Shown: piece by piece, positions 9,464-20,168 of the stretch
Numbering within the stretch: position 1 is the first letter of the stretch
Layout: every line of letters starts with the position of its first letter
Source of the DNA: Streptomyces sp. NBC_01231
Lineage (GTDB): Bacteria > Actinomycetota > Actinomycetes > Streptomycetales > Streptomycetaceae
Direction: 5' to 3'
DNA length: 64,000 bases
NCBI GenBank assembly: GCA_035999765.1
Contig: CP108521.1
Location: 9,920,001-9,984,000 of the forward strand
The notes under the pieces: generated by a model
What the model was told of the DNA's origin: nothing
The model's input: the letters and a program-made list of their open reading frames with translations, nothing else
The model's database searches: none
Made by a program: the position numbers and the translations under genes

Positions 9464-9730
9464 AGGCCTCGGGCGGTGGGCGCGTCGCGCCCCGGCCGGG
9501 CAGGGAACCGTCGGATCCGATACGCGCCAATAGCATCAACCCGTACCACAGGGCCGTCGGGCCTCACCGGCCCCGTCGCTCCATCCCGGCACACCCCCGC
9601 TACCGTGCGCATTTACGGACACTCCGCCGATCGCACGGCTTCATCACGTCGCCTTCACAGGACGCACACTTTCGGCCGGGCGGTGTCGAGTGAGTCGCCG
9701 CCGGGGCAGACGGTGCGCCCGTGGGATGCC
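9464..9730. other. Intergenic region, no gene recognised
   Basis: About 270 bases between the operon terminator and the promoter of the small secreted protein. It has less coding bias than the flanks and contains short AT-richer patches (around 9510-9535 and 9600-9665). I see no conserved ORF or RNA element in it. Confidence 0.4.
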
Positions 9731-9736
9731 TAGCCT
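9731..9736 (+). promoter_or_regulatory. Candidate -10 (TAGCCT), leaderless transcript
   Basis: TAGCCT lies eight bases before the ATG of the secreted-protein gene, matching the streptomycete TANNNT -10 element. Transcription would then start at or within a base or two of the ATG, and no Shine-Dalgarno sequence is visible, so a leaderless mRNA is likely. No convincing -35 is seen. Confidence 0.5.
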
Positions 9737-9744
9737 CCCAGGCC

Positions 9745-10272
9745 ATGCGATCACCACTGATGAGACGCTTCGGCCTCGGTGCCGTCCTCGCCCTCGCCCT
9801 CGCCGTGTTCGGCCTGGCCCCGACTGCGAGCGCGGCCGACCCGGCACCGGCCGAGCTGACGTTCGCCACCGACAGCGCCACCACCACGCCCGGCGGCACC
9901 GTGAACCTGTCGATGACGATCACCAACCACAAGACCTACGACATCTGGTTCGTGTACCAGACCATCGAACCGACGTGGCTGACCACCCAGCGCCCCGACC
10001 TGAAGTACAGCTTCACCGGCTGCAGCCTGGCCACGACCGCCGGCCCCACCCCGTGCTCCGGAACCGGACCCGCCAACCTCGGCACCAACTACGGCGCCAC
10101 CGTCCCGCCCGGCCAGAGCCGCACCGTCACGCTGACGGTCCAGGTGGCCGCCGACTCCGGCTGCAACGGCAACATCGGCTTCTACTCGTACTACTACGCC
10201 GAGTTCAGCGACAGCACCAACGCGAGCGGCGGTCCGGTCTACACGCCCGAGACCCGGGTGCTGTGTGCCTGA
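9745..10272 (+). CDS. Small secreted protein with beta-sandwich-like domain
   Basis: Predicted exported protein of 175 residues. It has a Sec signal peptide (MRSPLMRRFG, then a hydrophobic stretch, cleavage after TASA at about residue 30). The mature part resembles the surface repeat/DUF11-like fold: AELTFATDSATTTPGGTVNL, then TVPPGQSRTVTLTVQV, with an even spread of Thr, aromatic residues and four cysteines. The start is the ATG placed by the leaderless -10; an earlier in-frame GTG would disrupt the signal peptide. It stands alone between two operons in the same direction. A cell-surface or extracellular matrix role is suggested by export and by the neighbouring exopolysaccharide locus, but I do not recognise a specific family. 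Confidence 0.75.
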   Translation: MRSPLMRRFGLGAVLALALAVFGLAPTASAADPAPAELTFATDSATTTPGGTVNLSMTITNHKTYDIWFVYQTIEPTWLTTQRPDLKYSFTGCSLATTAGPTPCSGTGPANLGTNYGATVPPGQSRTVTLTVQVAADSGCNGNIGFYSYYYAEFSDSTNASGGPVYTPETRVLCA

Positions 10273-10678: not shown

Positions 10679-12808
10679 ATGAAGCGGAGCATACGTACGA
10701 CCGCGCTCACGGTGGGCGCGGTCGTCGCCGCGGTCGGCCTGCCGGCCGGCGCGGCCCGAGCCGCCGACGCCACACCCCGCATCGATCTGCGGGTGCTGGT
10801 GGTGAGCGACGGCGGCCCGTCCACCGACGCCATCGCGGAGGAACTGGACACGGCCGGGACGCCGTACACCGAGATCGACCTCACACAGGCCGGTCGGCCC
10901 GTGATCGATGCCGGCTTCCTCGCGGACACCGTGGACGGCCGGCCGCGCGCCAGGTTCCAGGCCGTCGTGCTGCCCAACGACAACCCGTTCACCACCGGCT
11001 CGAGCGAGATGGCGGCGCTCGCGGCCTACGAGCAGACGTACGCCATTCCCCAGGTCGACGCCTACACCTACGCGCGTCCGGAAGCGGGTCTGCAGTACCC
11101 GGTCTTCGGCGGCTACTCCGGCAGCGTCGACGGCGTGCAGGCCTCGGTGACCTCCGCCGGCCGGGCGGGCCCCTTCGACTACCTCGACGGCACGGTGCCC
11201 TTCGAGGACAACGACCCGGCCGTGGGCGAGAGTTACGCCTACCTGTCGACGCCCGTGGCGGGCGCCGACTTCACCTCGTACGTCGACGCTCCGATCCCCG
11301 GGCGGTCGACGCGCGGCTCGCTGGTGGGCGAGTACCGGCACGACGGGCGACGCGAACTCGTCGTCACGTTCGTCTACAACCAGTACCAGCAGCAGTTCCG
11401 GCTGCTGGCCCGCGGCATCGTCGAGTGGATGACCGGCGGCGTCCACCTCGGCGCCTCCCGCAACTACTTCGCCGTCCACGTGGACGACGTGTTCGCCGCC
11501 GACGACCGCTGGAACAGCACCCTGAACTGCACGCCCGGCGACGTCGACTGCGCCGACCCCGACGCCGAGCCCGACCCGATCCGCATGACGCCCGCGGACG
11601 TCGACCACGCCATCGCCTGGCAGAACAGCCGGGGTCTCACCCTCGACCTCGCCTACAACGCCGCCGGCAGCGTCAACCAGCGCGAGGACAACAACGGCGT
11701 CGACGCCCTCGCCGACAAACTGATCGCGGACCGGAGCGAGTTCCGCTGGATCAACCACACCTACTCGCACCCCTTCCTGGGCTGCGTGCAGGACACCACG
11801 GTGGTGCCCTGGAAGTGCGCCACCAACGCGGACGGCAGCACCCGGTGGGTCAGTCGCGCGGAGATATCCGATGAGATAGCCATCAACCGCGTGTGGGGCC
11901 AGAGCGCCCGACTCCCGCTGGACGACGGCGAGTTGGTCACCGGCGAGCACTCCGGCATGAAGGTGCTGCCGCAGCAGCCCGAGGACAACCCCAACCTGGC
12001 GCTCGCCCTCGACGACAACGACATCACCTGGCTCGGCTCGGACAACTCCCGTGACCCCGCCCAGCGTCAGCTCGGCCCGGCCACCACCGTCCCCCGCTAC
12101 CCGATGAACGTCTTCTACAACGCGGGCCGGGCCGCCGACCAGGTCGACGAGTACAACTGGATCTACACCAGCCGTGCCCAGGGCGGCAGCGGCATCTGCG
12201 AGGACAACCCGGCCACGTCGACGTGCCTGCCGGCACCGCTGGACACGGCCACCGGCTACGCCGACCACATCGTGCCCCTGGAGAAACGAATCGCCCTCGG
12301 ACACGTCCTGTCCAACGATCCCAAGCCGCACTTCATCCACCAGTCCAACCTGGCCGAGGACCGCATCGCCTACCCGGTGCTGAACGGCGTCCTCGACGGC
12401 TACGACGCCCTGTTCGCGGACAACGCCCCCGTGGTGAACCTGCGGATGAAGGACATCGGCATCGAACTCCGGCGCAGAGCCGCCTGGCAGGCCGCCTTGA
12501 AGGACGGCCAGGTCACCGCCTACCGCATCGGCGACGCGGTGACCGTCCAGGCACCGGACGGACTCGCCGTGACCGCGACCGCGCCCACCGGCACCACCCT
12601 GGGTGGCACCGCCTTCGGCTCGGCGTACGCGGGCGGGACATCCGGCTGGACGCCCTCCGCCGGCACCCCGCTCACCCTCGCCCTGCCGGCCTCCGCCACG
12701 ACACCGGCCGCGGAGGCCGCCGCCCCCGCCCCGGCCACCGACCCCGCGCCGGACACCCGAGTCCCCGCCGGCGTGACCGAACAGGTTCCGTACCCCGCGG
12801 ACAACTGA
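10679..12808 (+). CDS. Secreted polysaccharide deacetylase, Agd3/CE18-like
   Basis: Exported protein of 709 residues with a Sec signal peptide (cleavage near AARA, about residue 28). Residues 40-250 look like an accessory beta-rich region. A NodB-type deacetylase region follows: metal motif with aspartates D269/D270 in YFAVHVDDVFAADD, and the second motif H360-T-Y-S-H364 in WINHTYSHPFLGC, where the two histidines would bind metal. A C-terminal beta domain and an Ala/Pro-rich tail (after about residue 660) end the protein. The overall size, the DDVF and HTYSH motifs and the neighbours suggest the family of Agd3, the fungal galactosaminogalactan deacetylase. It would de-N-acetylate exported polymer outside the cell. 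Chosen start: ATG behind GGGAGGGGA. Confidence 0.75.
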   Translation: MKRSIRTTALTVGAVVAAVGLPAGAARAADATPRIDLRVLVVSDGGPSTDAIAEELDTAGTPYTEIDLTQAGRPVIDAGFLADTVDGRPRARFQAVVLPNDNPFTTGSSEMAALAAYEQTYAIPQVDAYTYARPEAGLQYPVFGGYSGSVDGVQASVTSAGRAGPFDYLDGTVPFEDNDPAVGESYAYLSTPVAGADFTSYVDAPIPGRSTRGSLVGEYRHDGRRELVVTFVYNQYQQQFRLLARGIVEWMTGGVHLGASRNYFAVHVDDVFAADDRWNSTLNCTPGDVDCADPDAEPDPIRMTPADVDHAIAWQNSRGLTLDLAYNAAGSVNQREDNNGVDALADKLIADRSEFRWINHTYSHPFLGCVQDTTVVPWKCATNADGSTRWVSRAEISDEIAINRVWGQSARLPLDDGELVTGEHSGMKVLPQQPEDNPNLALALDDNDITWLGSDNSRDPAQRQLGPATTVPRYPMNVFYNAGRAADQVDEYNWIYTSRAQGGSGICEDNPATSTCLPAPLDTATGYADHIVPLEKRIALGHVLSNDPKPHFIHQSNLAEDRIAYPVLNGVLDGYDALFADNAPVVNLRMKDIGIELRRRAAWQAALKDGQVTAYRIGDAVTVQAPDGLAVTATAPTGTTLGGTAFGSAYAGGTSGWTPSAGTPLTLALPASATTPAAEAAAPAPATDPAPDTRVPAGVTEQVPYPADN

Positions 12809-12904
12809 ACCGCGCACCCACTCAAGGACCGACCGCGGTCCCGTCCGCCATCCGTGGCCGGGACCGGTACGAACCACCCCACACCTCGGCCGTGGAGCAC
12901 ACCG

Positions 12905-14413
12905 ATGCACGTTCCCCACGCCGCGCGACGCCCCGGCGCGACGCGCGTCACCCTGCTCACCGAAGGCACCTACCCACACAGTCACGGCGGCGTGAGTGTC
13001 TGGTGCGACCAACTCGTCCAGGGCATGCCCGACATCGCCTTCGACGTCGTCGCCGTCACCGGCACCGGACGCGAACCCGTCGTCTGGGACCTGCCCGCCC
13101 ATGTGACGCGGGTCCTGTCCGTCCCCATGTGGGGCGCCCCGCCCGAGGGCCGCGCGCCCCGGGGCCGCGCCCGCAACCAACTAGCCGCCGCCTACGAGCA
13201 GTTCCTGACCGCGCTGCTCGACCCGTGCGCCGAGGACGGCTTCCCGCCCGCCCTGTACGCCATGGCGCGCGCCGCCACGGACGGCACGCTGAGCCCGTTC
13301 CTGCGCGGCGACCGGGCCGTCACGATCCTGGCCGACGTGTGGAACCGGCCGGGCCTGGCGGTGCGCGAGTCCGGTCCCACGCTGCACGACGCGCTCACCG
13401 CGACCGCCCTGCTGGAACACGCCCTGCGCCCGCTGGCCGCACCGCTGCCCGAGAACGGGGTCGCGCACGCCGTCAGCGGCGGGGTCGCCGCGCTGCCCGG
13501 CCTCGCCGCGCTCCACCAGCACGGTGTACCCCTGCTGCTGACCGAGCACGGCGTCTATCTGCGTGAGCGCTACCTCGGCTACCGCACCGCCCCCTACCGC
13601 TGGCCCGTGAAGGCCGTGGTCCTCGGCTTCTTCCGGCTGCTCGCCGAGGAGAGCTACCGCCGGGCGGCCCTGATCACGCCCGGCAACCGCTACAACCGGC
13701 TCTGGGAGGAACAGGGCGGTGCCGACCCGGAGTCGATCCGCACGGTCTACAACGGCGTGGACCCGGCCGCGTTCCCGCCGGCCGGGCCCGAGCCGCAGGC
13801 ACTCACCCTCAGCTGGGCGGGCCGGGTCGACCCCATCAAGGACCTGGAGACCCTCATCCGGGCCTTCTCCCTCGTACGGGCCCAACTCCCCGACGCGCGG
13901 CTGCGGTTGTTCGGCGGGACACCGCGTGGCGGAGAGGCCTACCGGGAACGCTGCGAGGCGCTGGCCGCCGAACTCGGGCACGCGGACGCGGTCACCTTCG
14001 AAGGCCGCGTCGACGACATCAAGGACGCCTACGCGGCCGGCAACGTGGTCATGCTGTCCAGCATCAGCGAGGGCTTCCCGTTCACCCTGATCGAGGCCAT
14101 GTCGTGCGGGCGGGCCACCGTCTCCACCGACGTGGGCGGAGTACGGGAGGCCGTCGGCGACACCGGCCTCGTCGTACCACCGCGCGATCCCGCGGCGATG
14201 GCGGCGGCAGCGCTGGAACTGCTCCGCGATCCCGCACGGCGCCGGGCGATGGGAGAGGCGGCGCGGCTGCGGGTGATCGAGCAGTTCACCCTGCGCCAGA
14301 CCATCGACACCTTCCGCGCGATCTACCTCGAACTGCCCACGCTGGAACGGCGGTCGAAGCCCGCGCCGACCATGTCCGAGGCGCTCGCGCCGGTGAGCAC
14401 GGTGGCCGGATGA
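12905..14413 (+). CDS. pelF: GT4 glycosyltransferase, PelF-like
   Basis: Cytosolic retaining glycosyltransferase of 502 residues. The N-terminal DUF3492-like domain starts TLLTEGTYPHSHGGVSVWCD, the hallmark of PelF, the enzyme that polymerises UDP-N-acetyl-hexosamine in Pel biosynthesis. LLTEHGVYLRERYL in the middle is also PelF-like. The GT4 C-terminal domain has the donor-binding EX7E motif as E389...E397 (SISEGFPFTLIEAMSCG). A GGAG lies about ten bases before the chosen ATG. It follows the deacetylase gene after 96 bp and overlaps the membrane-protein gene by 4 bp, the latter being the same pairing as PelF-PelG. It is probably the polymerase of this locus. Confidence 0.85.
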   Translation: MHVPHAARRPGATRVTLLTEGTYPHSHGGVSVWCDQLVQGMPDIAFDVVAVTGTGREPVVWDLPAHVTRVLSVPMWGAPPEGRAPRGRARNQLAAAYEQFLTALLDPCAEDGFPPALYAMARAATDGTLSPFLRGDRAVTILADVWNRPGLAVRESGPTLHDALTATALLEHALRPLAAPLPENGVAHAVSGGVAALPGLAALHQHGVPLLLTEHGVYLRERYLGYRTAPYRWPVKAVVLGFFRLLAEESYRRAALITPGNRYNRLWEEQGGADPESIRTVYNGVDPAAFPPAGPEPQALTLSWAGRVDPIKDLETLIRAFSLVRAQLPDARLRLFGGTPRGGEAYRERCEALAAELGHADAVTFEGRVDDIKDAYAAGNVVMLSSISEGFPFTLIEAMSCGRATVSTDVGGVREAVGDTGLVVPPRDPAAMAAAALELLRDPARRRAMGEAARLRVIEQFTLRQTIDTFRAIYLELPTLERRSKPAPTMSEALAPVSTVAG

Positions 14414-15825
14414 GCGGGCCGATATCCCTCGAACCCGGCGGCGCCGAACAGGACACCCTGGCCCTGCGGCTGGCCGAGACCCGCCCGCCGCGCCGCCGCC
14501 CGCGCTGGGCCCTCGACGACGCCACGCTCGCCATCCGGCTGCCGAGGCGCGGCCCCGACGAGGAGGCGGTCAGCGCACTGGCCGCCGAACTCGCCGACCG
14601 TGTCGGCCCCGCCGTCCACCCCTACGAGGTCGCCGCGCTGCTGGAGGCGGAGGGCCTGTCCGCCTCCCTCATCAAGGAACGCTACGGCCACCCGAACCTG
14701 TTCTCGCTGGCCTCCGCCCTGTACGAACGGGTACCGCGCACCTTCCCGGAGCCCGCGCCCACGGCCGACCCCTGGCGCCCGGACACCGTCCGCTGCCTCC
14801 TGCGCGGAGTGCTGTTCGCGCTGCCCGGGCTCGCCTACCTGCTGACCGCGCCGCTCTGGAACGCCGAAGGCCACGCCTCGGCCCTGATCGTGGCCGGACT
14901 CGTCTCCTGGGCCTGGGGACAGGCCCTCGGCCACCGGGCCCACCTGCGGATGGCCACCGGCAGACGGGAGGCCGGCCGTACGCTCCTGGCCGGCGCGCCC
15001 GCGGGGGCGGCGGTGGCCACCGCCGTCGCGGCGCTACCTGCCGGTGGCGGCCCGTTGACGCTGGTGGCGGCCGCGCAGTCGGCGTACCTCGCGGCGGCCG
15101 GCATCCTGCTGGTGCTGGGCCGGGAACGGCTGCTGCTCGCCGCGCTCAGCCCACTGGTCGCCGGCACCGCCGTCCTGCCGTGGTGGGAGCCGGGCCCTTT
15201 GCCGCGGGCGGGGCTGCCGCTCCTGGCGTTGCTCGCCACACTCGCCGTCACCGGCCGGGCCCTGTGGACCGTCCTCGCCGTCCCGGCCGTGTCCGGCGCC
15301 ACCCGGCCCCGCCTGCTGTGGTCCCTGCCGTACGGCCTGTTCGGGCTGGCGGCCGGGGTGCTGGTCCTGCTGGAGGGGCGACAGGAGCCGTACGCGGTGA
15401 TCGTGCTGACCGTCAGCATGGGGCCGGCCGAGTGGCTGCTGTACCGCTACCGCGGCCTGTCGGTCGCCGCCCTGCGCGCCACCGCGACGCCCGCCGGGTT
15501 CCTGCTCCGCTCGGCCGGCATCCTCGCCCTCTGTCTCCTCGGCTACCTCCTGCCGCTGTTCCCCGCCGCCCTGCTCACCGGCGCCGAACCGGCCACCCTG
15601 CTGCTGCTCGCGGCCACCCTGTGGACCGCGCTGCTGCTCCAGGCGTTCGGGGCGGCCTGGCCCTCGGCCACGATCTCCCTCGCCGCCGCCGGCGGCGCCG
15701 GCGTGGTCGCCCTGCTGCACCTCCCACCGGGGCCGACGGCGCTGCCGTGGGCCTGCGGCGCGGCGGCGCTGTGTCTGGCCGGGTGCGCCCTGTGGTTCCT
15801 CGGACGGCCGGCCCCGCACGTCTGA
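14410..15825 (+). CDS. 12-TM membrane protein, probable PelG-like exporter
   Basis: Integral membrane protein of 471 residues, coupled by an ATGA overlap to the PelF-like gene. The first 130 residues are soluble, charged and Arg/Pro-rich; from about residue 135 I count twelve hydrophobic segments to the C-terminus. PelG, the partner of PelF, also has 12 helices and belongs to the flippase superfamily, but the N-terminal region here does not look like PelG and the match is by topology and position, not by a motif. The soluble region contains an ALLEAEGLSASLIKERYGHP segment reminiscent of a small helical regulatory domain. Role proposed: translocation of the growing polymer. It could instead be an unrelated accessory protein. 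Confidence 0.6.
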   Translation: MSGPISLEPGGAEQDTLALRLAETRPPRRRPRWALDDATLAIRLPRRGPDEEAVSALAAELADRVGPAVHPYEVAALLEAEGLSASLIKERYGHPNLFSLASALYERVPRTFPEPAPTADPWRPDTVRCLLRGVLFALPGLAYLLTAPLWNAEGHASALIVAGLVSWAWGQALGHRAHLRMATGRREAGRTLLAGAPAGAAVATAVAALPAGGGPLTLVAAAQSAYLAAAGILLVLGRERLLLAALSPLVAGTAVLPWWEPGPLPRAGLPLLALLATLAVTGRALWTVLAVPAVSGATRPRLLWSLPYGLFGLAAGVLVLLEGRQEPYAVIVLTVSMGPAEWLLYRYRGLSVAALRATATPAGFLLRSAGILALCLLGYLLPLFPAALLTGAEPATLLLLAATLWTALLLQAFGAAWPSATISLAAAGGAGVVALLHLPPGPTALPWACGAAALCLAGCALWFLGRPAPHV

Positions 15826-15911
15826 CACCCCCGTCGACAGGGCCGAAAACCCGGCCGACCCCCGCACGATCCCTTGCTCCACTCCCGCAACCAACCGGAA
15901 GGACTCCCGAG

Positions 15912-16913
15912 TTGAACTCCGCACCGCTCGCCGCCGTCACCGGAGCCGAGGGTTTCATCGGCTCGCACCTCACCGAGGCGCTGGTCGCCTCCGGGCACCG
16001 GGTCAGAGCCATGGCCCAGTACAACTCGTTCTCCTCCTACGGCTGGCTCGAGACCCTGCACCCGGACGTCCTCGACCAGGTGGAGATCGTCCTCGGCGAC
16101 GTCCGGGACCCCGGCTCGGTCCGCGGCCTGCTCGAAGGGGCCGACGTCGCCTACCACCTGGCCGCCCTGATCGCGATCCCGTACTCGTACCAGGCGCCGC
16201 ACAGCTACGTGGACACCAACGTCACCGGCACCCTCAACGTGCTGGAGGCGGTACGCGTGCTCGGCACGCCCCGGCTGGTGCACACCTCCACCAGCGAGAC
16301 GTACGGCACCGCGCAGACCGTGCCCATCACCGAGGACCACCCCATCAACACTCAGTCGCCGTACGCCGCTTCGAAAGCGGGCGGCGACCGGCTGGCCGAC
16401 AGTTACCACGCCAGCTTCGACACCCCGGTCGTGACACTGCGGCCCTTCAACACCTTCGGGCCCCGCCAGTCCATGCGCGCGGTCATCCCCACCGTGATCG
16501 GCCAGGTCGCCGCGGGGGAGCGCACCATCACCCTCGGAGACCTGCGTCCCACCCGGGACTTCACCTTCGTCAAGGACACCGCGCAGGCGTTCCTCGCCGT
16601 GGGCACCGCGCCCGCCGAGCAGGTCGTGGGCCGCACCCTCAACGCCGGTACGGGCGGCGAGATCTCCGTCGGCGACCTGGTCGCCCTGATCGGCAAGGTG
16701 ATGGACACCGCCCTCGACGTCCACGCGGACCCCCAGCGGATCCGGCCCGCCAACTCCGAGGTCATGCGGCTGGTCGCGGACGCGAGCCGACTCACCGCCG
16801 CCACGGGCTGGCAACCCGCCCACACCTTGGAGGAAGGGCTCGCGCACACCGTGGAGTTCTTCGGCGACCCGGCCAACCTGGCCCGCTACAAGACCGGCAT
16901 CTACAACATCTGA
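15912..16913 (+). CDS. NAD-dependent nucleotide-sugar epimerase/4,6-dehydratase, LegB-like
   Basis: Extended short-chain dehydrogenase of 333 residues that starts at a TTG behind GGAAGGA (15897-15903); the sequence upstream of this codon does not code for the family. The NAD motif is GAEGFIG (residues 11-17) and the catalytic pair is Y151/K155 (SPYAASKAG). The segment RAMAQYNSFSSYGWLETL is characteristic of LegB-type UDP-GlcNAc 4,6-dehydratases and related enzymes. It would act on a UDP-N-acetylhexosamine, either making a 4-keto-6-deoxy sugar or acting as a 4-epimerase (the role Uge3 plays for galactosaminogalactan in fungi). The sequence alone does not decide between these. It lies 86 bp after the membrane-protein gene. 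Confidence 0.85.
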   Translation: MNSAPLAAVTGAEGFIGSHLTEALVASGHRVRAMAQYNSFSSYGWLETLHPDVLDQVEIVLGDVRDPGSVRGLLEGADVAYHLAALIAIPYSYQAPHSYVDTNVTGTLNVLEAVRVLGTPRLVHTSTSETYGTAQTVPITEDHPINTQSPYAASKAGGDRLADSYHASFDTPVVTLRPFNTFGPRQSMRAVIPTVIGQVAAGERTITLGDLRPTRDFTFVKDTAQAFLAVGTAPAEQVVGRTLNAGTGGEISVGDLVALIGKVMDTALDVHADPQRIRPANSEVMRLVADASRLTAATGWQPAHTLEEGLAHTVEFFGDPANLARYKTGIYNI

Positions 16914-16956
16914 CCTCGTCCGGCACGTCTGCGCACGTACACGAAGGAGGAGCCCC

Positions 16957-17670
16957 ATGCACGCAGTGATCCTGGCGGGAGGCAAGGGCGTTCGGCTGCG
17001 GCCCTACACCACCGCGCTGCCCAAGCCGCTCGTCCCCATCGGCGACCAGCATGCGATCCTGGAGATCGTGCTGCGGCAGCTCAGCACGGCAGGCTTCACC
17101 AGTTGCACCATCGCCATCGGCCATCTCGGCGAGATCATCCGCGCCTACGTCGGCGACGGCTCCCAGTGGGGCCTCACCGTCGACTACGCCACCGAGGAGA
17201 GCCCGCTGGGCACCATGGGCCCGCTGCTCACCCTGCGGGACAGTCTGCCCGAGCACTGCCTGGTGATGAACGGTGACGTCCTGACCGACCTCGACTACGC
17301 CGACGTCCTGCGCACGCACCGCGACTCGGGCGCACCGCTGACCATCGCCACGTACGCCCGCAAGGTGCAGATCGACTTCGGGGTGCTGACCACCGACTCG
17401 AGCCGGGTCGTGGCCTTCACCGAGAAGCCGAGCATGGACTACCGCGTCTCCATGGGCGTCTACGGCCTGTCCCGCTCGACGCTCGAGGGCTACACGCCCG
17501 GACTCCCGCTCGGCTTCGACGAGTTGGTGCTGGACCTGTTGGCCGTTCAGAACCAGCCGCACGCCTACGAGTTCGACGGATACTGGCTGGACATAGGTCG
17601 CCCGGACGACTACGACCGGGCCAACGCCGAGTTCACCACCCGCAAGTCGCATCTGCTCAAGGGAGCCTGA
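16957..17670 (+). CDS. Sugar-1-phosphate nucleotidyltransferase
   Basis: Nucleotidyltransferase of 237 residues that activates a sugar phosphate to an NDP-sugar. The nucleotide-binding signature LAGGKGVRLRPYT is at residues 6-18, the metal motif MNGDVLTD follows in mid-protein, and the sugar-binding FTEKP and WLDIGRPDDY segments are present. It is a short form (about 240 residues) lacking a left-handed beta-helix, so it carries no acetyltransferase. It has a canonical ribosome site (GAAGGAGGAG). Together with the two SDR genes on either side it forms a nucleotide-sugar supply module for the glycosyltransferase. Confidence 0.88.
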   Translation: MHAVILAGGKGVRLRPYTTALPKPLVPIGDQHAILEIVLRQLSTAGFTSCTIAIGHLGEIIRAYVGDGSQWGLTVDYATEESPLGTMGPLLTLRDSLPEHCLVMNGDVLTDLDYADVLRTHRDSGAPLTIATYARKVQIDFGVLTTDSSRVVAFTEKPSMDYRVSMGVYGLSRSTLEGYTPGLPLGFDELVLDLLAVQNQPHAYEFDGYWLDIGRPDDYDRANAEFTTRKSHLLKGA

Positions 17671-17677
17671 GCGCCGC

Positions 17678-18571
17678 ATGCGTATTCTCGTCCTGGGGCA
17701 CACCGGTTATCTGGGTGCCCATGTCGTCGAGCGGCTGCGCGCCCTGCCGGGCGCGCTGGTCCTCGGCGGCGGCCGCTCGTCCGCCGCCGAGATCCCCGTC
17801 GATCTGGCCTCCGTCCGCTCGGAGCAACTGGCCAAGACCCTCGCGGGCGCCGCGCCCGACACCGTGATCAACTGCGCGGGCGCGACCGGCGGGGACGCGG
17901 TGACCCTCGCGGAGGTCAACGCCCGCGGCCCCGCCGTGCTGTGCGCCGCGCTGCGCGAGGCGGCGCCCGCGGCGCGTCTGGTCCACCTCGGCTCGGCCGC
18001 CGAGTACGGTCCCGGCGTCCCGGACACCCGGGTGCCGGAGGCGGCGGCCACCCGCCCGGTCGGACCGTACGGTGCGACCAAGCTCGCCGGCACGGTCGCG
18101 GTGACCTGCTCCGGCCTGGACGCGGTGGTGCTGCGGGTGGGCAATCCGGTGGGGCCCGGGGCGCCGGCCGGCGGGCTGCCCGGCCGGATCGCCGGACTGC
18201 TGCGCGCGGCCGGCCCGGACCCGGACGCGGTGCTGCGGCTCGGCGACCTGTCCGCGTACCGCGACTTCGTCGACGTACGCGACCTGACCCGGGCGGTGGC
18301 CCTCGCGGTCACCGCCCCCGGCCCGCTGCCGCCCGTCCTCAACATCGGCGGCGGCCGGGCCGTCCCGGTGCGTGACCTGGTGCGGGGCCTGGCCGACAGG
18401 GCCGGCTTCCGCGGGCGGATCGAGGAGAACGCCGCCGGGTCCGCCCGCGCGGCTCAGGTGTCCTGGCAGTGCTCCGACATCACCGCGGCCGAGAAGGCCC
18501 TGGGCTGGCACCCGGCGCACACCCTCGACGACGCGCTGGCCGCACTCTGGGAAGGCGACGGTACGCCGTGA
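17678..18571 (+). CDS. NAD(P)-dependent sugar epimerase/reductase, RmlD/GalE-type SDR
   Basis: Extended SDR protein of 297 residues, eight bases after the nucleotidyltransferase. The dinucleotide motif is LVLGHTGYLGAHV (glycines at 7, 10 and 13) and the catalytic pair is Y131/K135 in PYGATKLAG. The NAG-type element is NCAGATGG. Its sequence lies between dTDP-4-dehydrorhamnose reductases and UDP-sugar 4-epimerases, so it may reduce or epimerise the keto sugar made by the TTG-started SDR. It ends in a GTGA overlap with the spherulin-like gene, placing sugar supply and polymer processing in one operon. Confidence 0.82.
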   Translation: MRILVLGHTGYLGAHVVERLRALPGALVLGGGRSSAAEIPVDLASVRSEQLAKTLAGAAPDTVINCAGATGGDAVTLAEVNARGPAVLCAALREAAPAARLVHLGSAAEYGPGVPDTRVPEAAATRPVGPYGATKLAGTVAVTCSGLDAVVLRVGNPVGPGAPAGGLPGRIAGLLRAAGPDPDAVLRLGDLSAYRDFVDVRDLTRAVALAVTAPGPLPPVLNIGGGRAVPVRDLVRGLADRAGFRGRIEENAAGSARAAQVSWQCSDITAAEKALGWHPAHTLDDALAALWEGDGTP

Positions 18572-19230
18572 GCCTGCTGATTCCGCTCTATGTCCACCCC
18601 ACCGAGGACCCGGGCGCCTGGCACCGCCTGATCACCGCCGCCACCCGCACCTACGGGGTCGTCCTCAACCCCGCGAACGGCCCGGGCGACGGCCCCGATC
18701 CCGCGTTCACCGCCGCCGCCGGGGCGTTGCGCGCGGCCGGGGCACGACTGCTCGGCTACGTCGACACCGACTACGGGGTGCGCGACCTCGCGGAGATCGC
18801 CGACGACGTACGCCGGCACCGGGAGTGGTACGCGGCCGACGGCTGCTTCCTCGACCGGGTGACGGCGACGCCGGAGGGCCTGTCGGCGTGCCGTCGGCTG
18901 GTGCGGACCGTACGCCGGCTCGGTGCGGGGACGGTCGTCCTCAACCCCGGGGTGCATCCGGCGCCCGGGTATGTCCGGCTGGCCGACCTCACCGTCACCT
19001 TCGAGGGCCACTGGTCGACGTACGTGTCGGCGTTCAGCAGACCGGCGTGGACCGCGCGGCAGCCGGCCGAGCGCATGTGCCACCTCGTCTTCGGCGTGCC
19101 CGAGGCTCTCGTCCCCCTCGCCGTCCGCACCGCGCACGACCGCGGTGCGGCGGTCTGCGGTCCGGTGACGGGCGAACCTCCCAATCCCTGGGCCGGGTTG
19201 ACGCCCGCGCTGACGGGGACCGAGCGATGA
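18568..19230 (+). CDS. Spherulation-specific family 4 (GH135, Sph3-like) protein, cytoplasmic
   Basis: Protein of 220 residues with the spherulin-4 fold signature: it opens with LLIPLYVHP (first strand of the barrel), then VLNPANGPGD, LLGYVDTDYG, GCFLDRVTA and TVTFEGHWSTY. In fungi this family includes Sph3, an alpha-1,4-N-acetylgalactosaminidase needed for galactosaminogalactan synthesis. Two things are odd. There is no signal peptide or anchor, so as annotated the protein stays in the cytoplasm. Where characterised relatives, as I recall, have an Asp-Glu pair after the GxFF strand, this protein has D96-R97; the later acidic residue E146 is kept. It may be a degenerate or altered hydrolase. 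Start is the GTG overlapping the previous stop; its stop overlaps the GH114 start. Confidence 0.8.
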   Translation: MSLLIPLYVHPTEDPGAWHRLITAATRTYGVVLNPANGPGDGPDPAFTAAAGALRAAGARLLGYVDTDYGVRDLAEIADDVRRHREWYAADGCFLDRVTATPEGLSACRRLVRTVRRLGAGTVVLNPGVHPAPGYVRLADLTVTFEGHWSTYVSAFSRPAWTARQPAERMCHLVFGVPEALVPLAVRTAHDRGAAVCGPVTGEPPNPWAGLTPALTGTER

Positions 19231-20168
19231 GGAACAGGGCACCGGTGGTTGCGACGCTGCTGGCCGTGCTGGGAGCTTCCGGGGTGGCGGGTTGCTCCGG
19301 CGCGGACGGGACAACGCCCCCCGGAGCCCACCGGACCACCGACGCACGCGGTCCGGCATCCGACGCCCCGGTCACCACGACCCCGCGGCCCCCGACCGCG
19401 GCCACGAGCAGCCCGCCGGCCACCGGCGACTCCCCGCCCGCACCCCGCCCTTCGACACGCCCCGCGAAGACGCGCTGGAAACCCCGGCCCGGCCTCGCCT
19501 GGCAGTGGCAACTGGACGGCAGGGTCACCCCCTCGGCCGACGTCCCCGTCTACGACATCGACGGTTTCGAGAACTCCGCGGCCGACGTGGCCCGCCTGCA
19601 CCGCGAGGGCCGCAAGGTCATCTGCTACGTCAACGTGGGCGCCTGGGAGAACTTCCGGCCCGACAAGGACGCCTTCCCACGCTCGGTGCTCGGTGAGACC
19701 AACGGCTGGGCGGGCGAACGCTGGTTGGACATCCGGCGGCTCTCCGTCCTGAAGCCGATCATGGAACGACGCTTCGACATGTGCCGCGACAAGGGCTTCG
19801 ACGCGGTGGAGCCCGACCTGGTGGAGGGCTACGGCAACGACACCGGCTTCCCGCTCACCGCACGCGACCAACTCGCCTACAACCGCATGATCGCGGCCGT
19901 CGCCCACGAGCGCGGACTGTCGGTCGGACTGAAGAACGACCTCCCCCAGATCCCCCGACTCCTCGCCCACTTCGACTTCGCCGTCAACGAGGAGTGCGCC
20001 CAGTACGACGAGTGCGCGGAACTCGCCCCCTTCATCGCGGCCGGCAAGGCGGTGTTCCACGTGGAGTACTCGGAACCAAGAAGCAGCTTCTGTGCCGAGT
20101 CCCGCCGACTGGGGCTGTCCTCGATGGTGAAGGAGCCGGAACTGGGGGTGTGGCGTCAGCCGTGCTGA
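19227..20168 (+). CDS. GH114 endo-alpha-1,4-polygalactosaminidase lipoprotein (Ega3-like)
   Basis: Predicted lipoprotein of 313 residues. A hydrophobic leader ends in the lipobox VAGC (Cys 23), followed by a Pro/Thr/Ser-rich linker (24-82) that would hold the enzyme off the membrane. The catalytic domain starts near residue 85 (WQWQLDG) and shows VPVYDIDGFEN, VICYVNVGAWENFRPD, FDAVEPDLVEGYGND (E195/D197), GLKNDLPQ and FAVNEECAQY (E255/E256), a complete GH114 motif set. The family cleaves alpha-1,4-linked galactosamine polymers; fungal Ega3 belongs here. It is the last gene of the cluster, overlapping the spherulin gene by 4 bp, and would act on exported, deacetylated polymer at the cell surface. 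Confidence 0.85.
   Translation: MRNRAPVVATLLAVLGASGVAGCSGADGTTPPGAHRTTDARGPASDAPVTTTPRPPTAATSSPPATGDSPPAPRPSTRPAKTRWKPRPGLAWQWQLDGRVTPSADVPVYDIDGFENSAADVARLHREGRKVICYVNVGAWENFRPDKDAFPRSVLGETNGWAGERWLDIRRLSVLKPIMERRFDMCRDKGFDAVEPDLVEGYGNDTGFPLTARDQLAYNRMIAAVAHERGLSVGLKNDLPQIPRLLAHFDFAVNEECAQYDECAELAPFIAAGKAVFHVEYSEPRSSFCAESRRLGLSSMVKEPELGVWRQPC

Follow-up and report, generated by a model that had tools for sequence, protein, structure and literature searches.

Which sugar does a streptomycete polymerise when one operon joins a bacterial PelF-type synthase to processing enzymes known from the fungal galactosaminogalactan (GAG) cluster? Such an operon lies at positions 10679-20168 of the window analysed here, a 64,000-nt stretch of Streptomyces sp. 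NBC_01231 (GCA_035999765.1, contig CP108521.1, positions 9,920,001-9,984,000 of the forward strand). A sequence-only reading of the window had described a co-directional operon for a deacetylase, PelF, a 12-transmembrane (12-TM) partner, three sugar enzymes, a GH135-like protein and a GH114 lipoprotein, and had proposed a galactosamine-type product. The arrangement is as described, with all eight genes on the plus strand. The three sugar enzymes, here called the kit, are conserved and most likely make a 6-deoxy sugar, and the polymer is probably not plain galactosamine. We put at about one half the probability that this is a synthase-type CE18/PelF exopolysaccharide locus supplied by its own nucleotide sugar, a 6-deoxy-N-acetylhexosamine (6-deoxy-HexNAc).

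Results

The operon carries a LegB-type dehydratase, a nucleotidyltransferase and a probable reductase

The first kit gene (15912-16913, plus strand) has a TTG start behind a GGAAGGA site and codes for a LegB-type nucleoside diphosphate (NDP)-sugar 4,6-dehydratase. Against TIGR04180 (LegB) the protein scores 452.5 bits and does not reach the curated cut-off of 475; that cut-off does not separate, since a Campylobacter jejuni LegB also falls short of it with 464.8 bits, and a copy from a Deinococcus operon reaches 478.1. The window's dehydratase is 50.2% identical over 323 residues to this C. jejuni LegB, a plasmid copy whose identity with the characterised enzyme rests on annotation. The C. 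jejuni enzyme is reported to dehydrate GDP-N-acetylglucosamine (GDP-GlcNAc) (PMC7439481). In all 43 copies from operons with the kit (form I, below), T127-S128-E129, Y151 and K155 are invariant. A Glu at this place of the T-S-E motif typically denotes a dehydratase or decarboxylase rather than an epimerase.

The second gene (16957-17670, plus strand) encodes a sugar-1-phosphate nucleotidyltransferase (PF00483, 134 bits) closest to mannose-1-phosphate guanylyltransferases. Its best PDB match is 7d72, GMPP beta (E 2e-29), and its best NCBIfam model man1P_GTase_Rv (140 bits, cut-off 440). The third, SDR2 (17678-18571, plus strand), is a short-chain dehydrogenase/reductase (SDR) and probably an NADPH-type 4-ketoreductase; its best PDB match is 2pk3, a GDP-6-deoxy-D-lyxo-4-hexulose reductase (E 1.6e-18). 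Tyr131 and Lys135 are present in 42 of 42 copies and Arg33, after beta-strand 2, in 40 of 42; an Arg at this place is typical of NADPH use. Across form I, median conservation is highest in the dehydratase (90.7%) and the nucleotidyltransferase (87.8%), against 84.6% for PelF and 73.9% for CE18.

The kit marks one of two forms of the operon

Two forms of the operon can be told apart. That of the window, form I, has the LegB-type dehydratase, the nucleotidyltransferase and SDR2, while form II has none of the three. Among 92 loci, the window included, 43 have the dehydratase, which defined form I, 47 lack all three kit genes, which defined form II, and two are neither; the definition is circular, and part of the loci were gathered through dehydratase matches. 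We therefore also consider 20 loci picked by the partner gene alone, the weakest matches of our class survey being left out. Eleven of them have all three kit genes, eight have none and one (L051) is a distant variant. With only two of the 92 loci outside both forms, and with this 11/8/1 split, the division is not explained by the circular definition. A further set of 80 loci consists of the best CE18 matches and is biased to form I.

The 43 dehydratase loci also encode the nucleotidyltransferase (42), SDR2 (43), PelF (40), the partner (41), GH135 (41), CE18 (38) and GH114 (27). In the 47 kit-free loci the counts are 43 for CE18, 45 for PelF, 47 for the partner, 44 for GH135 and 34 for GH114. 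Contig ends account for part of the gene absences (L075, L083, L143). Trees of PelF, CE18, the partner, GH135 and GH114 each divide the forms without a misplaced tip (support of the split 0.955, 0.993, 0.763, 0.993 and 0.98, respectively); the kit is co-inherited with one lineage of the cluster.

In 150 Streptomyces genomes, 35 TIGR04180 matches score at least 440 bits and all are in this operon: 33 lie within 6 kb of a partner gene, one (G388) sits at the end of a contig together with the remaining operon genes, and one (G361) belongs to a decayed operon. None of the 29 matches of 417-439 bits is near a partner gene. A dehydratase beside the partner is found in 33 of the 150 genomes and a partner locus (at least 45% identity) without dehydratase in 44; eleven genomes have both, which suggests two products. 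Form II loci L044-L050 tend to share their housekeeping neighbours, which were assigned by eye and not by hidden Markov model (HMM) as leucyl aminopeptidase-like and 2-oxo acid dehydrogenase-like genes. Form II may therefore belong to the core genome and form I be mobile.

Both forms recur outside Streptomyces. A search of plasmid proteins placed PelF and the dehydratase together on four Streptomyces californicus plasmid records, of which the form I record L233 is linear, and on four Deinococcus plasmids. The Deinococcus order is PelF-partner-dehydratase-nucleotidyltransferase-SDR2-CE18, with SDR2 on three of the four. Profiles built here detect the partner and CE18 in all four Deinococcus loci, GH114 genes are annotated in three, and the dehydratases are 63-69% identical to the window's. 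The Deinococcus aquaticus plasmid (L229) has two tandem CE18-type genes and two different glycoside hydrolase genes behind the kit. Kocuria rosea encodes CE18-PelF-partner-GH135-GH114, and Thermus brockianus encodes CE18-PelF-partner with a GH114 gene adjoining on the other strand; no kit genes are among those annotated in 17 kb in either case. The T. brockianus partner match is weak (E 4e-5).

The synthase is PelF but its partner is not PelG by sequence

The sequence-only reading saw a PelF-PelG engine in the operon. The PelF half stands: the 12905-14413 protein (plus strand), a GT4 glycosyltransferase, is above the cut-offs of both NF038011 (PelF; 179.3 bits, cut-off 100) and PF11997 (DUF3492; 213.5 bits, cut-off 23.3). 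Twenty PelF positions differ between the two forms. The partner (14410-15825, plus strand) belongs to a family without a Pfam model. It has a cytosolic N-terminal helical domain, and its predicted structure is a 12-TM MATE/Wzx/MurJ fold of the MOP superfamily. PF16933 (PelG) gave no match above its cut-off of 29 in the window genome, where the one 23-bit match lies elsewhere, and hhalign of the partner against 18 PelG proteins gave a probability of 0.4% (E 0.16) over a short, non-significant stretch. We therefore rejected the partner as a PelG by sequence; what it has in common with PelG is the superfamily type of the predicted fold. In our surveys, 18 of 296 genomes in the class have the partner gene, as do 70 of 150 in the genus when weak matches are counted.

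Among the PelG proteins seen, a 739-aa metagenome protein (P0093) is listed with both PelG and GH114 domains, and three others (P0053, P0056, P0061) have PelG joined to PF13581.

Two processing enzymes are probably exported and one probably is not

The protein at 10679-12808 (plus strand) had been read as an Agd3-like secreted deacetylase, and its placement in CE18 holds. Like Agd3, to which it is homologous, it is built of three domains in the order CBM87-CE-beta, the N-terminal one being CBM87-like, and the fold predicted by modelling agrees with this placement. The CE18 motifs D269 D270, H360-x3-H364, E423, H551 and H554 are invariant in 78 sequences; the metal-binding residues are presumed from work on CE4 and CE18. 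Like the GH114 protein, it bears an export signal.

The last gene of the operon (19227-20168, plus strand) encodes an endo-alpha-1,4-galactosaminidase-like lipoprotein of GH114 (PF03537, 289.5 bits; Ega3 6oj1, E 4e-56). D197 and E255 are kept in 26 of the 27 form I copies and in all 34 of form II and, from alignment and spacing, appear to correspond to D189 and E247 in the published numbering of Ega3. A lipobox-like motif is present in 22 of the 27 and 18 of the 34 copies, respectively.

The gene before it (18568-19230, plus strand) encodes a GH135/spherulin-4-like protein (PF12138, 122.5 bits; Sph3 5c5g, E 7.6e-15). All 41 form I copies have D96, and all but one have E146. The pair is kept in both forms, and in the alignment with Sph3 the two residues fall on an Asp and a Glu, suggesting that they are the catalytic pair. 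Sph3 is a secreted enzyme, and the bacterial protein had been expected to be secreted as well. This was not borne out, as no signal-like segment was found in it. With start codons assigned by a script that prefers the start used in the window, the GH135 domain opens at most six residues from the start in 32 of the 41 copies of form I and in 36 of the 44 of form II. With D96 and E146 kept and no signal, a probably cytosolic hydrolase acting on the nascent chain would be the simplest reading.

Discussion

What the operon may make

From these enzymes a pathway can be proposed. The nucleotidyltransferase would activate a sugar-1-phosphate, probably to a GDP-sugar, the LegB-type enzyme would dehydrate the NDP-sugar to its 4-keto-6-deoxy form, and SDR2 would reduce this to an NDP-6-deoxy-HexNAc of the D-N-acetylfucosamine (D-FucNAc) or N-acetylquinovosamine (QuiNAc) type. 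PelF could polymerise this sugar on the cytosolic side and the 12-TM MOP-fold partner could move the chain across the membrane, where secreted CE18 would strip part of the N-acetyl groups, giving a cationic polymer. The GH114 lipoprotein may trim deacetylated stretches at the cell surface, and the cytosolic GH135-like protein may act on the nascent or mis-sited chain in editing or quality control.

Several observations point to a 6-deoxy amino sugar. The presence of a deacetylase together with two hydrolases of amino-sugar polymers speaks for an N-acetyl sugar. The kit is co-inherited with one lineage, recurs in Deinococcus and is more conserved than the other genes, which suggests that its product is the sugar polymerised, or else an essential component of that sugar. 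As the dehydratase is 50% identical to a LegB reported to act on GDP-GlcNAc, form I would most simply polymerise a 6-deoxy-HexNAc, for example D-FucNAc, and form II the N-acetylgalactosamine/galactosamine (GalNAc/GalN) version. A more specific proposal, which we hold tentatively and at somewhat less than even odds, is that Streptomyces and Deinococcus make an alpha-1,4-linked, partly N-deacetylated poly-6-deoxyhexosamine, poly-D-fucosamine or a close relative, from a GDP precursor, and that some streptomycetes have a separate galactosamine cluster, the two sister polymers differing at carbon 6. A PelF-type polymer of this chemistry was not found in the literature searched.

A number of points weigh against a 6-deoxy-HexNAc polymer. 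PelF is thought to use UDP-sugars, and we saw no case of a PelF with a GDP-sugar. The dehydratase and the nucleotidyltransferase are both under the curated cut-offs of their best models, and the closest PDB sequence of the dehydratase is 6dnt, annotated as an epimerase/dehydratase and not a proven dehydratase. The Deinococcus grandis plasmid (L232) has no SDR2 at the locus. CE18 is absent from five of the 43 form I loci, cut off by contig ends in L075 and L143 though not in L038, L039 and L084, and is short or fragmentary in four more (L034, L071, L129, L142), while GH114 is missing from 16 of the 43. In Streptomyces, two of 313 GH114 positions separate the forms (N136S and L198N), and 198 adjoins the presumed nucleophile. 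We rejected the pair as a signature of a 6-deoxy substrate: Asn occupies position 198 in both well-aligned Deinococcus form I copies, and the form I residues occur in one deep form II locus (L124). Nor would the two positions be independent evidence, because the forms represent one single split in the tree.

Three other products were considered. The kit-made 6-deoxy residue could alternate with, or decorate, a GalNAc/GalN backbone made from housekeeping UDP-GalNAc as in Pel and GAG. Such a heteropolymer is consistent with the CE18, PelF, GH135 and GH114 proteins of form II being 51-67% identical to the window's (medians), so that backbone chemistry may be common to the two forms, and fungal GAG is itself described as containing galactose and GalNAc (PMC4817252). 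Since the operon has one glycosyltransferase gene, the heteropolymer needs a transferase encoded elsewhere or a PelF with two donors, and we consider it unlikely. We give less credence again to the product of the sequence-only reading, a plain, partly deacetylated alpha-1,4-GalNAc/GalN polymer of the GAG or Pel kind, with the SDRs as 4-epimerases making UDP-GalNAc. That reading was right about the PelF synthase and the GAG-type processing enzymes, though not about PelG or a secreted GH135, and characterised GH114, GH135 and CE18 enzymes are reported to act on GalN/GalNAc polymers (PMC12054363, PMC7229062), and known Gram-positive pel loci are reported often to have GalE (PMC7112168). But plain galactosamine is not supported by the kit. 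The two SDRs score 140 and 47 bits against the GalE model TIGR01179 (cut-off 262), compared with 452 bits for LegB, and on this HMM evidence no GAG-type UDP-Glc/GlcNAc 4-epimerase was found in the cluster; Glu129, the residue of dehydratases and decarboxylases, is invariant; and form II lacks all three genes, so GalNAc supply needs none of them. A LegB-like enzyme with a reductase-like one would instead point to a 6-deoxy amino sugar.

A neutral 6-deoxyhexose polymer, of the GDP-D-rhamnose or 6-deoxytalose type and made from GDP-mannose with CE18 as an O-deacetylase, would suit the kinship of the nucleotidyltransferase with mannose-1-phosphate guanylyltransferases and of SDR2 with the 2pk3 reductase, and many database names of the dehydratase are GDP-mannose 4,6-dehydratase. 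We find it very improbable, given that the GMD model TIGR01472 scores 84 bits on the dehydratase where 415 are needed and LegB gives 452, and that three families of amino-sugar polymer enzymes are in the same operon.

Neighbouring genes and related loci

Upstream of CE18 lies an open reading frame for a small secreted protein (9721-10272, plus strand; about 150 residues when mature), in which the ATG at 9745 is probably the conserved start. No Pfam family is above its cut-off; DUF6049 and fn3_5 match weakly. Of 73 form I loci that offer 1.5 kb or more of upstream sequence, 67 have this gene ahead of CE18 in the same orientation, at a median distance of 404 nt. In a second set, of loci with 1.3 kb or more upstream, 19 of the 36 form I loci have it and none of the 8 form II loci does; it may be an accessory gene of the cluster. 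In Gram-positive pel operons pelD and pelE form a c-di-GMP control module; no domain like theirs turned up when the eight operon genes and two genes upstream were scanned with Pfam, no dedicated PelD/PelE profile being run. No credible regulatory RNA or sigma-70-type promoter was found at the locus, and we put the sole Rfam match, a virus stem-loop below its gathering score, down to chance.

The window genome has two DUF3492 loci, this operon and L054 (G000:C1:6693000-6712900). L054 represents a third type of PelF locus: beside PelF it encodes a 479-aa protein that matches no Pfam family, a relative of SDR2 (43%) and a spherulin-4 protein with Gly and Ser in place of the conserved Asp and Glu. 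CE18, the kit and GH114 were not found there. A second LegB-type clade in Streptomyces is about 51% identical to the window's dehydratase and has a MurG-like neighbour in three of five loci inspected among the 417-439-bit matches (L069, L070 and L074, not L072 and L073); it is possibly another 6-deoxy amino-sugar pathway. The distant variant L051 (4735-15267, genome G095) encodes CE18 (27%), PelF, the partner, the nucleotidyltransferase (65%) and SDR2. It also has a UDP-glucose/GDP-mannose dehydrogenase, an SDR of the T-S-E type and a weak match to GH114, and is perhaps a uronic or pentose variant.

Relation to known systems

The fungal GAG cluster (agd3, ega3, sph3, gtb3 and uge3) has the CE18, GH114 and GH135 processing enzymes in common with the operon, which differs in that its synthase is a PelF paired with a MOP-fold protein and its GH135-like protein lacks a signal peptide. 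Where the fungal cluster is reported to have a UDP-glucose 4-epimerase (PMC11356417), the operon has the dehydratase/reductase kit. The Gram-positive pelDEADAFG operon is described with a PelF synthase, a Wzx/MATE-type partner and a deacetylase (PMC7112168), all of which have counterparts here, but our operon has no PelG by sequence, CE18 in place of PelADA, and the kit where several pel loci are reported to have GalE.

The start of the C. jejuni legionaminic acid pathway, like the operon, uses a LegB-type dehydratase and a sugar nucleotidyltransferase. In the operon a ketoreductase-like SDR comes next, and no aminotransferase or NeuB-like gene is among the eight genes.

The core idea is not new. 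Such operons in Actinobacteria were published in 2020, when Agd3 homologues were reported in 45 bacterial species (Bamford et al. 2020, PMC7229062). The bacterial agd3 operons described there have CE18, a cytoplasmic glycosyltransferase, a multi-TM protein, GH114 and, in some Actinobacteria, spherulin-4; the text available from that paper makes no mention of two forms, a LegB-type kit or the fold of the membrane protein. In the open-licence literature searched we found no paper on the two forms or on a LegB-type kit with PelF. The same study notes reports of low-level galactosamine-containing wall polysaccharides and a secreted endo-alpha-1,4-galactosaminidase in streptomycetes (PMC7229062).

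Pel, GAG and poly-N-acetylglucosamine (PNAG) are cationic amino-sugar polymers and serve as adhesive matrix materials, and the cluster is a genetic handle on an adhesive amino-sugar polymer in streptomycetes. If the kit makes a 6-deoxy amino sugar, the Pel-like polymer family would be chemically broader, and the hydrolases would be tools for a new substrate. Strains with form I and strains with form II would then be a natural pair for the effect of carbon 6 on adhesion and pelleting.

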